DNA of 64,000 nt from Neisseria sp. 83E34 (lineage in GTDB: Bacteria > Pseudomonadota > Gammaproteobacteria > Burkholderiales > Neisseriaceae): positions 62,001 through 126,000 of the forward strand of contig NZ_LGYH01000005.1 of assembly GCF_001308015.1 (NCBI RefSeq), in the 5' to 3' direction. The notes below the pieces were generated by a model. It saw only the letters and a program-made list of their open reading frames with translations. It made no database searches and had not been told where the DNA came from. Below, in pieces: positions 46,745 to 51,060 of the stretch; position 1 is the stretch's first letter, and every line of letters starts with the position of its first letter. Both the position numbers and the translations under genes were made by a program.

Positions 46745-46784
46745 ACAATGCCTGTCTGAAAAACAATTTCCAGACAGGCATTGT
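46745..46784. terminator. DUS inverted-pair terminator, one arm changed
   Basis: ACAATGCCTGTCTGGAAA-like pairing: the left arm is a full DUS and the right arm has C in place of T (CCAGACAGGCA). It lies 13 bases past the stop of the 196-residue gene and ends the CsgG-like cluster. Confidence 0.7.
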
Positions 46785-46797
46785 AATCGGTCAGAAA

Positions 46798-47388
46798 CTA
46801 TTCTGATTGAGGCGTGGAAACCGGTTTTTCCTCCGTATTTCTCTCGGTAGAAACCGCCGGTTGTGTTACGCTTCCGGCAGCAGAGTCACCCTGCCGTGCA
46901 ATAACACGCACTTTATTCAATTTGTTATTCAAATCCCGAACAGTGCGTGCGTTTTGTTCCTCGATATTGTAAAGCTGTTGCAACTCGGGTAACTCAAGCC
47001 CGGCTTCCAAAGATGCCATGGACTGCTGTATCTCCGAATTCATTTGCTTCAACGCTTCGCGCACGCTGGCTACACTTCGTTCAGGAGCGCCATGCTGCAT
47101 CCAGCCGGCAATCTGCATAGACATCATTTGCAGGTTTTGCTGACGGCGGTTGACCGCGGGAACCCGTTGCGCATACTGGTAACGCTGCAATAGCGCGATT
47201 CTGTTAGTATCAATATTGGACAGCGAAATTTGCGGCATCTGAAACTGACCGGCTTGCTGGCCACCCTGAGCTGTCCTTCCACCGATATTCGGATCAGGAT
47301 TATTAACGATGAAAATTTCTGCGGATACCGGCGCAGCAACAGATAACACACCGATTAACAACGAGGTTGTTTTTATTTTGTTAAACAT
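46798..47388 (-). CDS. Secreted coiled-coil protein, possible CsgF-like accessory factor
   Basis: A 196-residue periplasmic or surface protein. The signal peptide ends at residue 23 (VSA-E). The mature N-terminus reads EIFIVNNPDPNIGG, which resembles the N-terminus of CsgF (F-x-F-x-NPNFGG), the part that plugs the CsgG channel in curli secretion. Residues about 40-165 are helical and rich in Gln/Met with heptad-like spacing (LQQLYNIEEQNARTVRDLNNKLNKVR), so a coiled coil is likely; the last 30 residues are a Ser/Thr/Pro/Glu tail. ATG 47388 follows GGGAG. It is 11 bases after the CsgG-like gene and ends the cluster. The CsgF link is an inference from motif and position. Confidence 0.6.
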   Translation of the reverse strand: MFNKIKTTSLLIGVLSVAAPVSAEIFIVNNPDPNIGGRTAQGGQQAGQFQMPQISLSNIDTNRIALLQRYQYAQRVPAVNRRQQNLQMMSMQIAGWMQHGAPERSVASVREALKQMNSEIQQSMASLEAGLELPELQQLYNIEEQNARTVRDLNNKLNKVRVIARQGDSAAGSVTQPAVSTERNTEEKPVSTPQSE

Positions 47389-47399
47389 AATCCAGCTCC

Positions 47400-48353
47400 C
47401 TAACAACTTTGTTCGCTTGTTTTATAGGGTTTGAGAAATTTATCCAGCAACTGGTACACGCCCTTATCAATCATCTCTTTAACGGCCGCCATTTTCGGGT
47501 CGGCTACCCGGGCAGAATAATCTATACCGTAATCTTTAGACCCTATCAAGCGGAAAAAATTGTGTGTGTTTTTCACGGCATAAAACGTATTGGTCAGGCT
47601 AACCGTAGCCAGCTCGTTAGTGCCGTTCACACGCATTACCGCACCTGTCCAAGAATCAATCAGCCGCATATTTACCGTTGCTGTAATCGCCTGAATATCC
47701 CGCGAATATTGGTATTGATAAACATCTACACCAATATTGGTATTAGGTAAAACTCCCTCTTCATCATACTGAGTCAAAGCACCGGCGATATAATAATTGG
47801 AAGGGAAATTTACTCCGGTCGGCACATGCTGCAACGAAGTCATAGTAGAGGAAAAATTCTGCACAATACCGTCGGCCAATACATAATTCGGATGCAGGAA
47901 ATTATTGCGCGATTCAATCAAGGTGTCAGGAAACAACGGTGTTTCCACCAAATCAAAATGACGGAAATGCGACATTGCATCCATGACCATATCCGAAATA
48001 GCCGTGGAATTAATATCAAAAACCTTACCGGTTTTATCCCTGAACGGTGCTACCGCCATGCGGAAATACCCGTTACCAGTTGTTACGCCTGATTGAAGCG
48101 CACTCTGACGGACTGTGTCGAAAAAACCGGCATGCATATCGCGCAGACATTCCAGCTTTTTACCGTAAAAAGTTTGATGATCGCTAATCTGTTGGGAGCG
48201 CTGGTCGGCCACAGCCTGCACTTTGGCACGCTTACTTTCGCTATTGTAATAATTGCGCGTATATTTCAAATCAAGTGTCGAACATGCCCCTGCAAATAAT
48301 GTGGCCGACAACAAAGCAGCCATTTTTATTTTTGTTTTTATTGAAGTTATCAT
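47400..48353 (-). CDS. CsgG/HfaB-like outer-membrane secretion lipoprotein
   Basis: A 317-residue lipoprotein (lipobox LFAGAC, Cys24). After a helical N-terminal part (about 30-90), residues 95-290 follow CsgG/HfaB: MAVAPFRDKTGK, then NSTAISDMVMDAMSHFRHFDLVE, a YVLADGIVQNF strand, YIAGALTQYDEE, and ITATVNMRLIDSWTGAVMRVNG. In CsgG these form a nine-subunit pore that exports curli. The loop after DKTGK is several residues shorter than in CsgG, so the constriction may differ. Its ATG overlaps the stop of the 191-residue subunit gene by 4 bases. Confidence 0.75.
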   Translation of the reverse strand: MITSIKTKIKMAALLSATLFAGACSTLDLKYTRNYYNSESKRAKVQAVADQRSQQISDHQTFYGKKLECLRDMHAGFFDTVRQSALQSGVTTGNGYFRMAVAPFRDKTGKVFDINSTAISDMVMDAMSHFRHFDLVETPLFPDTLIESRNNFLHPNYVLADGIVQNFSSTMTSLQHVPTGVNFPSNYYIAGALTQYDEEGVLPNTNIGVDVYQYQYSRDIQAITATVNMRLIDSWTGAVMRVNGTNELATVSLTNTFYAVKNTHNFFRLIGSKDYGIDYSARVADPKMAAVKEMIDKGVYQLLDKFLKPYKTSEQSC

Positions 48354-48925
48354 TTTGCGATCGCCTTAAATGTGTTGCGTCCTTTAACATCAACAATAAT
48401 ATTGCTTTCATCGTCATCGTCAAAGCCGGTGCACACCACTCCTGCACACGCCTTGCCTCCGTTAGAAGCAACTGCAGTAGCTTGAATATTGCTGTTGCGC
48501 GAAGTAACACGCACATTCTGCATCTTCACCTTAGAATTACCTTTTTTATTGCCATTTTCAATCACTACAATGCCAGCATTATTCCCCTTGGTAGATTGAG
48601 TAATGCCATCAGTAATGATGCGCGTATCACGGATGATTATCTGCTTGTTGAGCGGGTTTTCAATCTGAATCAACGGCTCTTTATCGCCTGCCTTACCGAT
48701 AATGGTACCGCCCTGCAAAATCACTTTATTGCCGTTTTGAATCAACTTACCGCCTTGCAAATTGCGTACTTCGATTTTCTCCTGCTTTAACGCACCTTTG
48801 TTTTCGGTAACAGGCTTTCTTTCGGAAACCGAACCTTTATCGGTAATGGAGTTCGGCGCCGCATGAGAAACAGACGCTGCCAGAAATACGCTGCTTAAAG
48901 CAAGCACTAATTGACGTTTAGACAT
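48350..48925 (-). CDS. Secreted beta-rich protein of the CsgG-like cluster
   Basis: A 191-residue exported protein (signal peptide cut near SHA-AP, about residue 22). A Lys/Glu-rich linker (about 25-55) leads to a region rich in beta strands and Asn/Gly/Ile (GGKLIQNGNKVILQGGTIIG, IIIRDTRIITDG, GIVVIENGN) that suggests a parallel beta-helix. The C-terminal ATAVASNGGKACAGVV carries the motif shared with the three smaller secreted proteins. It has an extra CxxxC pair (CAGVVC). Ribosome site CAGGAG. The stop overlaps the CsgG-like start, so it may be the anchor or nucleator subunit, by analogy with CsgB. Confidence 0.65.
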   Translation of the reverse strand: MSKRQLVLALSSVFLAASVSHAAPNSITDKGSVSERKPVTENKGALKQEKIEVRNLQGGKLIQNGNKVILQGGTIIGKAGDKEPLIQIENPLNKQIIIRDTRIITDGITQSTKGNNAGIVVIENGNKKGNSKVKMQNVRVTSRNSNIQATAVASNGGKACAGVVCTGFDDDDESNIIVDVKGRNTFKAIAK

Positions 48926-49008
48926 GTCTTAAAACTCCTGTTTAAAAATTAGAATTGTTCCGCTTTCTCAAACACACGATCTTACCCTTGTAGCCATTAT
49001 TCAAATAT

Positions 49009-49353
49009 TTATTTATTCACATAAGCACCGGCAAATGCCTTGTTTCCGTTTGATGCCTCCGCATGAGCATTTATCCGGGCACTTTCAAGCTTCACTTCCG
49101 CTCTCTTTTTGTCGTTTTTAATGCCTTTATTACTGTTATGGCTGATTACACCGCCTGCTACTGCATAAGAATTTCCTCCGTCGGCAATAGCCGTAGCATT
49201 AATACTGCTGTTATCCAATTTCCCTATAGCGACATTACCATCTATCTTGTTAACCCATTTAAGCGACTCATTTTCGATAAAGTCAGTTATAGGGTTGGCA
49301 CCGGCATACATGGCAGCCAAACAAAATGCAAATAACATTACTCTCTTATTCAT
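49009..49353 (-). CDS. Small secreted repeat protein C
   Basis: A 114-residue exported protein (signal peptide cut near AGA-N, residue 19). Two imperfect repeats follow: one about 39-80 (GNVAIGKLDNSSINATAIADGG, then YAVAGGVISHN) and one about 83-114 (AEVKLESARINAHAEASNG, then KAFAGAYVNK). Alternating small and hydrophobic residues (I-N-A-x-A-x-A) point to beta strands. Most divergent of the three small subunits; a charged insert (NKGIKNDKKR) separates the repeats. ATG 49353 follows CAGGAG. Confidence 0.7.
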   Translation of the reverse strand: MNKRVMLFAFCLAAMYAGANPITDFIENESLKWVNKIDGNVAIGKLDNSSINATAIADGGNSYAVAGGVISHNSNKGIKNDKKRAEVKLESARINAHAEASNGNKAFAGAYVNK

Positions 49354-49401
49354 CAGTCATACTCCTGTTATAGATTTATTAAATAAACCGAAAATATCTA
49401 A

Positions 49402-49423
49402 AGCGTGGGCTCATGCCCACGCT
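49402..49423 (-). terminator. Hairpin between subunit genes B and C
   Basis: AGCGTGGGC and GCCCACGCT form a perfect 9-bp stem with loop TCAT, 59 bases past the subunit B stop. There is only a short T tract afterwards, so it is more likely a partial terminator or RNA-stabilising end than a full stop. Confidence 0.6.
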
Positions 49424-49482
49424 TATCGTCTCAATGGCACAGGGCATAACCTGACATTATTGATTCAGGTAAAAGCCTAATA

Positions 49483-49839
49483 TTAATATTGCGAAGCCAC
49501 TACGCCACCAGCATTAGCTACACTATTCTTACCTGATGCTTTAGCTTTAGCTTTAACTGTTCCACCAGTAAATACGCCAAGACCTACGTTCACACCAACA
49601 GTTGATTGGCCAGCTTTTTGACTTGCTACCACACCACCCGCATTAGCCAGCCCACCGTTTTGAGCATCCGCTTCAGCCTCAATGTTAGCATTGTCTGTTA
49701 CAAAACCTACGCCGGCATTAATTGCTGCAGTTTTATTAAAAACTTTGCCCGCCACATCAGCTGCGCTGCCAAGCGCATCTGCCTGAGCACCAGCAGAAAC
49801 GATCATCAAAGCTAAAAACAATGCAGAAACTTTTTTCAT
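49483..49839 (-). CDS. Small secreted repeat protein B
   Basis: A 118-residue exported protein (signal peptide cut near AQA-D, residue 20). Two clear repeats: 39-74 (AINAGVGFVTDNANIEAEAD, then GGLANAGGVVASQ) and 81-117 (VGVNVGLGVFTGGTVKAKAK, then NSVANAGGVVASQ). The shared end ANAGGVVASQ appears twice exactly. Ala, Gly, Val and Asn dominate and there is no Cys, as in amyloid-type or beta-solenoid subunits. ATG 49839 follows TAGGAG. I do not recognise a named family. Confidence 0.75.
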   Translation of the reverse strand: MKKVSALFLALMIVSAGAQADALGSAADVAGKVFNKTAAINAGVGFVTDNANIEAEADAQNGGLANAGGVVASQKAGQSTVGVNVGLGVFTGGTVKAKAKASGKNSVANAGGVVASQY

Positions 49840-50005
49840 GATTAAACTCCTAAAATCTAAACTCTATTAATTTAAGGATACGGAACTATTTTCCGCCAAG
49901 GAGGCATGCAACAGTAACAATGAAGAGGGGTTTACCATTGCTTGCTATAAACAGCCGGGTCCATCCCAAACCATTTAATTCTAAAACTCTACAAAATTCA
50001 GACGA

Positions 50006-50344
50006 TTATTCGGTTCCCGCAATAATGCCTCCGGCCAAAGCTTTGCTTTTACGCCCGTTGGCTTTTGCACGGGCTTTAATATCTGTATTTTTCAATATAC
50101 CTGCTGACACATTAATACGGACAGCTTTATTTTTAGTATTCTGATCGGCAATCACTCCACCCGCCGAAGCCATACCGCCATTTGAAGCTTCCGCCTCTGC
50201 ATCTATGGAACTATTGTCTAATACACCTACTGCAACATTGGCTCTGGTTCTCCCGGTCAAAATATCACTCAATCCGCCAAGACCGAAAGCTGAAGCAATA
50301 GCCGGTATCGCCAACGCACACAGCAACAGATAAATCCTTTTCAC
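50006..50344 (-). CDS. Small secreted repeat protein A (first gene of the cluster)
   Basis: A 112-residue exported protein (signal peptide cut near ASA-F, residue 19). Repeats at 35-68 (ANVAVGVLDNSSIDAEAEAS, then GGMASAGGVIADQ) and 75-110 (VRINVSAGILKNTDIKARAK, then SKALAGGIIAG). Repeat 1 is acidic (DAEAEA) and repeat 2 basic (KARAKA), a pattern also in protein B, which could help head-to-tail stacking. The start is GTG 50344, 5 bases after a full AGGAGG ribosome site. Confidence 0.75.
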   Translation of the reverse strand: MKRIYLLLCALAIPAIASAFGLGGLSDILTGRTRANVAVGVLDNSSIDAEAEASNGGMASAGGVIADQNTKNKAVRINVSAGILKNTDIKARAKANGRKSKALAGGIIAGTE

Positions 50345-51060
50345 TCCCGCCTCCTAGCTATATTAAGCTGAATTGAATTCTCTAGTGATAAATGACTTTA
50401 AACAAACAACAAATTTAAAATGTTCCGTTTTTTGATAGTGCCTTCATTTCAAATTTTATGTCATTGTACTAATTTGTCAGTTTCTAATAAAGAAAAGTTT
50501 CCTTTTTTCAGGCAGACAACTTTTGTTAACAAATATTCTTCAAGCAGAGAATTTTTCAAATGCTTAAATTACCAACAAACGGCACGCTTTAAGCGCCTCC
50601 CCCAAAAACTAATTTTTACAAAAATAAACAATTTAACAATACAAAGTTTATTATAATTAACAAAATTATCATCTTTTAAATCAACATATTAATAATTTTT
50701 GTTATGATATTTTAATAACAAACGATATGGATAAACGTATCATTTAAACGCATAGAAGGCTGTCTGAAATCGGTTTTAGCTTCGCAGAAACCCGCGTTGC
50801 CCGTTTTCAAACAGCCTTCTTCTATTCAAATCATTCAAATATTCATCTATCCTACTTCCCAATACCATACCAAAACAGCGTGGCTATGAAACTGAACTTT
50901 TCATACGAAGCGGCTGAATACAGTACATAAATTTAAGAAACTGCCATAACAATTAATTAAGCATTTCAACTAATTAAGCATTTCAACAAAAATATAAAAC
51001 CGAAAACTGAACATTTAGTAGGATATTAAGCCTTTCAGCCACCTCGTTATAATAAAGCAC
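50345..51060. other. Long AT-rich upstream region of the CsgG-like cluster
   Basis: About 700 bases, much more AT-rich than the genes on either side. It should hold the cluster promoter on the minus strand. It includes an odd DUS-like stem at about 50755-50822 (AAGGCTGTCTGAAA with TTTCAAACAGCCTT), whose loop repeats in inverted form at 51612-51631. Short open frames here look like chance. Confidence 0.5.
50778..50797 (+). repeat. Left copy of a 20-bp inverted repeat flanking the PAS gene
   Basis: AGCTTCGCAGAAACCCGCGT, exactly complementary to 51612-51631. It sits in the loop of a stem made from the variant DUS AGGCTGTCTGAA. Confidence 0.75.

Follow-up and report, generated by a model that had tools for sequence, protein, structure and literature searches.

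The 64,000-nucleotide stretch of Neisseria sp. 83E34 analysed here (the window; contig NZ_LGYH01000005.1, positions 62,001 to 126,000) contains six consecutive minus-strand genes, within positions 46798-50344 of the window, that are best read as a candidate self-contained secretion and assembly system, a CsgG-dependent (type VIII-like) variant. In order of transcription, the genes encode three small repeat proteins (R112, R118, and R114, collectively R), the protein P191, a 317-residue lipoprotein, and the protein CC. The interpretation we favor is that the R proteins leave the cell by way of a CsgG-like pore and assemble into a surface polymer, with P191 as its base or nucleator; we assign this reading as a whole a probability of about 0.55. 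The original prediction, made from the nucleotide letters of the window, had described a row of six minus-strand genes, the lipoprotein and CC genes with overlapping or near-touching starts. Open reading frames (ORFs) were confirmed at the coordinates and lengths that it gave, with the P191 and lipoprotein genes overlapping by 4 bases and the CC start lying past the lipoprotein stop by a gap of 11 bases. The ratio of non-synonymous to synonymous substitution rates (dN/dS) for the six genes was 0.04-0.31 (18 comparisons among three close genomes).

A divergent CsgG-family lipoprotein

The lipoprotein is almost certainly a divergent member of the CsgG family. All eight members found among Neisseriaceae matched the Pfam CsgG family (PF03783) at E ≤ 0.1, the best at 7.9e-8; the copy in the window scored 21.1 bits, over the curated cut-off of 20.8, across residues 186-304. 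When the lipoprotein profile was aligned with canonical CsgG, hhalign returned a probability of 97.6%. The original prediction had claimed CsgG/HfaB landmarks and named a failed profile match as grounds for rejecting it; the match to CsgG was found. When PDB sequences were searched with the lipoprotein and the four profiles, no plausible relative emerged, all rows being weak (E 0.12 or higher).

The segment between the conserved TG and ST, which we take to correspond to the constriction of CsgG, was six residues long in all eight members, as compared to ten or eleven in 14 canonical CsgG proteins. The span from lipobox to CsgG domain, judged by eye, was about 70 residues, or roughly twice the canonical length. 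Besides the lipobox cysteine, Cys69 and Cys317 were invariant in all eight members and may form a disulfide.

Co-occurrence and gene order

Across 83 Neisseriaceae genomes, the lipoprotein was found in eight, including N. wadsworthii 9715; all belonged to the genus Neisseria (8 of 46 genomes, as against 0 of 37 from other genera). Profiles of R, P191, and CC matched the identical eight genomes and no other. Among the 83, the small proteins were therefore present wherever the lipoprotein is kept and nowhere else, the opposite of the absence that the original prediction had named as grounds for abandoning it. Its suggestion to look for the R motif beside CsgG-like genes in other Neisseriaceae was likewise fruitful, since R and the lipoprotein occurred together in these 8 of 83 genomes, with gene order and strand constant in 8 of 8 loci (cited below by number where needed). 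That the cluster genes form one joint system is very likely.

The number of R genes varied: three loci held three, one held two, and four held one. The surroundings varied as well, with at least five different neighborhoods across the eight loci. Pfam naming was applied to ten flanking ORFs of five loci, of which nine were named. An IPP transferase gene flanked the cluster in two loci, on opposite sides; a YebC-like gene (by eye) flanked it in three. Other flanking genes were seen at one locus each: ribBA with an EamA transporter; PhoU; and an ATP-binding cassette (ABC) protein with a permease. Given the constant order and differing neighborhoods, the cluster behaves as a cassette. Base composition was examined for a sign of recent transfer, and the idea was abandoned: at a G+C fraction of 0.440 the cluster lies below the window as a whole (0.474), but 179 of 605 stretches of equal length were as low.

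Wider searches yielded little. The lipoprotein profile, run against samples of 369 genomes of the class and 300 of the order, and the R profile, run against 321 genomes of the class, each matched only its own genome, while one scan of genome contigs gave a single relative, in N. wadsworthii. None was found in plasmid searches (lipoprotein and P191) or in a scan of viral contigs (lipoprotein). In N. wadsworthii 9715, an ORF near the cluster (L001, 9129-10100) holds a long run of unknown residues, corresponding to N in the record.

Exported proteins with a shared motif

Signal peptides were recognized by eye at the N-terminus of R112, R118, R114, P191, and CC. A search of a small database made up of the ORFs of the eight loci (BLASTP, low-complexity filter off) related R112 to R118 (E 3e-24) and to R114 (5e-8). 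One rule applied to the 15 R proteins of the eight loci detected internal repeats at z 2.3 to 11.3, the weakest being R114 of L011 (36 of 1000 shuffles as high), R114 of L010 (7 of 1000), and R of L012 (4 of 1000). The repeat period was 41-43 residues in 15 of 15 proteins, with an aligned core of about 35. The two repeats earlier described in R112 and R118 are real, the unit of about 36 residues corresponding to the core and not to the period; R114, for which no repeats had been claimed, is likewise a two-repeat protein. An AlphaFold2 model of R112 (15 rows) had six strands, three per repeat, at a moderate predicted local distance difference test score (pLDDT) of 61.5.

In the window, no shuffle in 500 scored as high as P191 against R114, 4 did so against R112, and 9 against R118; such tests covered five of the eight P191 proteins. 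The R profile detected P191 in 4 of 8 genomes, at E ~1e-4. A motif common to the four small exported proteins, as originally claimed, is thus backed by similarity above chance in both BLASTP and shuffle tests. The ACAGVVCT segment of P191 was invariant in 8 of 8 proteins, and we read the protein as having beta-helix character.

The statement that the subunits do not follow the CsgA-type repeat also held: none of the six proteins matched curlin at Pfam E ≤ 1. R, P191, and CC had no Pfam or NCBIfam domain above cut-off; the weak rows returned were taken as chance.

Comparison with known systems

Curli share several features with the Neisseria cluster: a CsgG-family lipoprotein, small exported repeat proteins, a compact arrangement of genes, and a second protein carrying the motif of the subunit, P191 with that of R as CsgB with that of CsgA. 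The curlin repeat family (PF07012), CsgE (PF10627), and CsgF (PF10614) were nevertheless found in none of the eight cluster genomes at E ≤ 0.1, in searches for which the E. coli control was positive in each case; the CsgF and curlin searches were also positive in one or two further control genomes. By hhalign, P191, CC, and R profiles reached at most 6.5% against CsgE, and the highest value for either accessory family, R against CsgF at 55%, spanned the signal peptide only. Because curlin repeat, CsgE, and CsgF were all sought and not found, the cluster is not a member of the curli systems, although it may work like one. It differs further in its repeat period, three predicted strands per repeat, the shorter constriction loop, and the longer span before the CsgG domain.

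CC was considered as a relative of CsgF. Its mature N-terminus, EIFIVNNPDPNIGG, resembles that of CsgF, ELVYTPVNPSFGG, and hhalign aligns the two, at a probability of only 1.6%; the candidate was not accepted and is kept as a lead. A CsgF-like role for CC is doubtful.

Other systems bear resemblance of different kinds. Pseudomonas Fap (FapC) is among the closest known. A second CsgG-family lipoprotein of about 222 residues (L036-L055) is widespread in Neisseriaceae; where its neighbors were checked, at L038 and L043, it precedes genes for a DUF4810 protein and a GNA1162-like lipoprotein. Apart from the family shared by the two lipoproteins, this operon differs in the length of the protein, in its partners, and in the weak match of its profile to ours (32%), and is a different branch. 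An island operon of Acinetobacter baumannii with three lipoproteins, one of them CsgG-like, is described in one report (PMC3224125) and may be of this second type; CsgG-like proteins of Acinetobacter are mentioned there and in another report (PMC8446060).

A 2012 survey of curli systems (PMC3521004) listed two betaproteobacterial systems, both in Burkholderiales, never used the word Neisseria in the main text, and considered CsgG matches outside curli to be likely paralogs from a larger family. The original prediction knew of no such cluster described for Neisseria, and none was found among the matches listed from open-licence papers in PMC.

Proposed mechanism and its alternatives

The sequence of events we propose is as follows. 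R proteins would cross the inner membrane by means of their signal peptides and exit through a ring of the CsgG-like lipoprotein; export through such a pore is probable. At the cell surface they would stack into a beta-rich polymer, each adding two three-strand units, a step to which we give slightly better than even odds. P191 would nucleate or anchor this polymer in the manner of CsgB in curli, though we propose the nucleating role only tentatively. CC would take the part of CsgE and CsgF as a helper in the periplasm or bound to the pore, and a hairpin past the R gene or genes transcribed first would hold subunits in excess over machinery. The earlier description of a curli- or holdfast-like system stands in its CsgG match, its co-occurring genes, and its non-curlin subunits; exit through a pore and the fiber itself are the parts that we infer.

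Several observations weigh against this mechanism. The window lipoprotein lies scarcely above the Pfam cut-off, over a partial domain, and a six-frame genome search with PF03783 reported only 4 of 8 cluster copies at E ≤ 0.001. The hhalign result comes from a direct comparison of two profiles, that of the lipoprotein being thin (8 rows). The AlphaFold2 model of the lipoprotein, built on the same number of rows, was weak (pLDDT 48.7), as was that of R112, and Foldseek gave no significant match for either. With a constriction loop four to five residues shorter than that of CsgG, the same mechanism of export is not assured. Similarity between P191 and R was weak or absent in some species (66, 411, and 76 of 500 shuffles as high in L016), and CC had no significant similarity to CsgF or CsgE by hhalign.

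The alternative that survives best, though unlikely, is that the CsgG-like ring exports R as small soluble or surface-bound proteins that form no polymer, much as MafA does with MafB in meningococci. MafA, an oligomer of about 270 kDa in the outer membrane, carries out the export of MafB and has been likened to CsgG by the authors of that work (PMC7738311); a lipoprotein oligomer dedicated to an adjacent exported protein can therefore serve cargo other than a fiber, and the R proteins have only two repeats. Repeats, paralogs, and a motif in common with P191 nevertheless fit a polymer better, and searches of R, P191, and CC gave no domain above cut-off. The comparison with Maf is by description only, the cargo of the Neisseria cluster being a family of repeat proteins; our lipoprotein search matched only the eight cluster genomes of 83, with MafA itself outside that comparison.

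A holdfast-like anchor, in which a short patch of R and P191 on the surface would tie an exopolysaccharide to the cell as HfaA and HfaD do with HfaB, is less probable. The Caulobacter HfaABD system has a like list of parts, namely a CsgG-related protein and two surface partners, one of them small and amyloid-like (PMC6707917); the likeness is one of description and of the shared CsgG family. The Neisseria loci, however, carry up to three R paralogs, and no polysaccharide gene, including any for export, was seen in the cluster or among the nine named of ten flanking ORFs at five loci. Least probable is that the lipoprotein has the CsgG fold but makes no pore and acts in the periplasm, where R would also remain: a CsgG fold is no proof of secretion, and the second CsgG-family group is common in Neisseriaceae and, at the two loci checked, lies ahead of DUF4810 and GNA1162-like genes. 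The profile match to canonical CsgG, however, far exceeds that to the short group, and neither DUF4810 nor GNA1162-like families were matched by any of the six cluster proteins.

Hairpins and expression

In each of the eight loci, one spacer beyond the first R gene or genes folded with unusual stability when set against dinucleotide shuffles (z from -2.7 to -6.2; no more than 2 of 200 shuffles as low). The stable spacer comes after the second R gene at three loci (the window, L010, L011), after the first at L014, and after the sole R gene at the remaining four; its sequence differs between lineages. In the window it lies between R118 and R114 (z -3.9; 0 of 200 shuffles as low). Three spacers besides the stable ones were fold-tested: that between R112 and R118 in the window was intermediate (z -2.1), and those before P191 in the window and L014 showed no unusual folding. 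The position of the hairpin fits an arrangement of abundant subunits above a partial terminator and scarce machinery downstream; attenuation of this kind is consistent with the layout.

One arm of the hairpin after CC contains an exact copy of TGCCTGTCTGAA (46749-46760, plus strand), a 12-mer that we take to be the wadsworthii dialect of the DNA uptake sequence. It occurs 65 times in the window, often as close inverted pairs, against 0 in shuffles, and is absent inside 46798-50344; gaps of similar size exist elsewhere in the window. Upstream of R112, a stretch of 716 bases (50345-51060) has only 30% G+C and may hold promoter and regulatory sites. Coordinates are given in Table 1. CC has 196 residues from its ATG and would have 202 from an alternative TTG start.

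Table 1. Features of the cluster, in window positions
Feature	Position	Strand	Length	Description
R112	50006..50344	-	112 residues	GTG start after AGGAGG; exported two-repeat protein, candidate subunit
R118	49483..49839	-	118 residues	Exported two-repeat protein, candidate subunit
R114	49009..49353	-	114 residues	Exported two-repeat protein, more divergent paralog
P191	48350..48925	-	191 residues	Exported; R-like motif near C-terminus; ACAGVVCT cysteine pair; candidate nucleator or base
CsgG-family lipoprotein	47400..48353	-	317 residues	Lipobox LFAGAC (by eye); candidate outer-membrane export pore
CC	46798..47388	-		Exported, looks helical; candidate accessory protein of the periplasm or pore
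Hairpin R118-R114	49401..49424	-	10 bp	G+C-rich; candidate attenuator between upstream subunit genes and the rest
Hairpin after CC	46745..46784	-	18 pairs	Terminator-like

Implications

A broader possibility, which we hold at somewhat less than even odds, is that the cluster specifies a third kind of dedicated bacterial surface polymer, with a CsgG-type pore, three-strand repeats of 42 residues, a nucleator (P191) and helper (CC) of its own, and a mobile Neisseria cassette to carry them; the layout of the R repeats would then, with equal reserve, be nearer to FapC than to CsgA. If so, CsgG pores would be general exporters paired with unrelated families of subunits. If the favored interpretation is right, the genus Neisseria would have a protein-fiber system not described in the literature searched, and CsgG secretion would not be bound to curlin repeats. 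Substrate recognition by the pore would become testable, since substrate, constriction loop, and accessory proteins differ while the pore family is constant, and a pore with a shorter constriction loop would be of interest as a nanopore scaffold.
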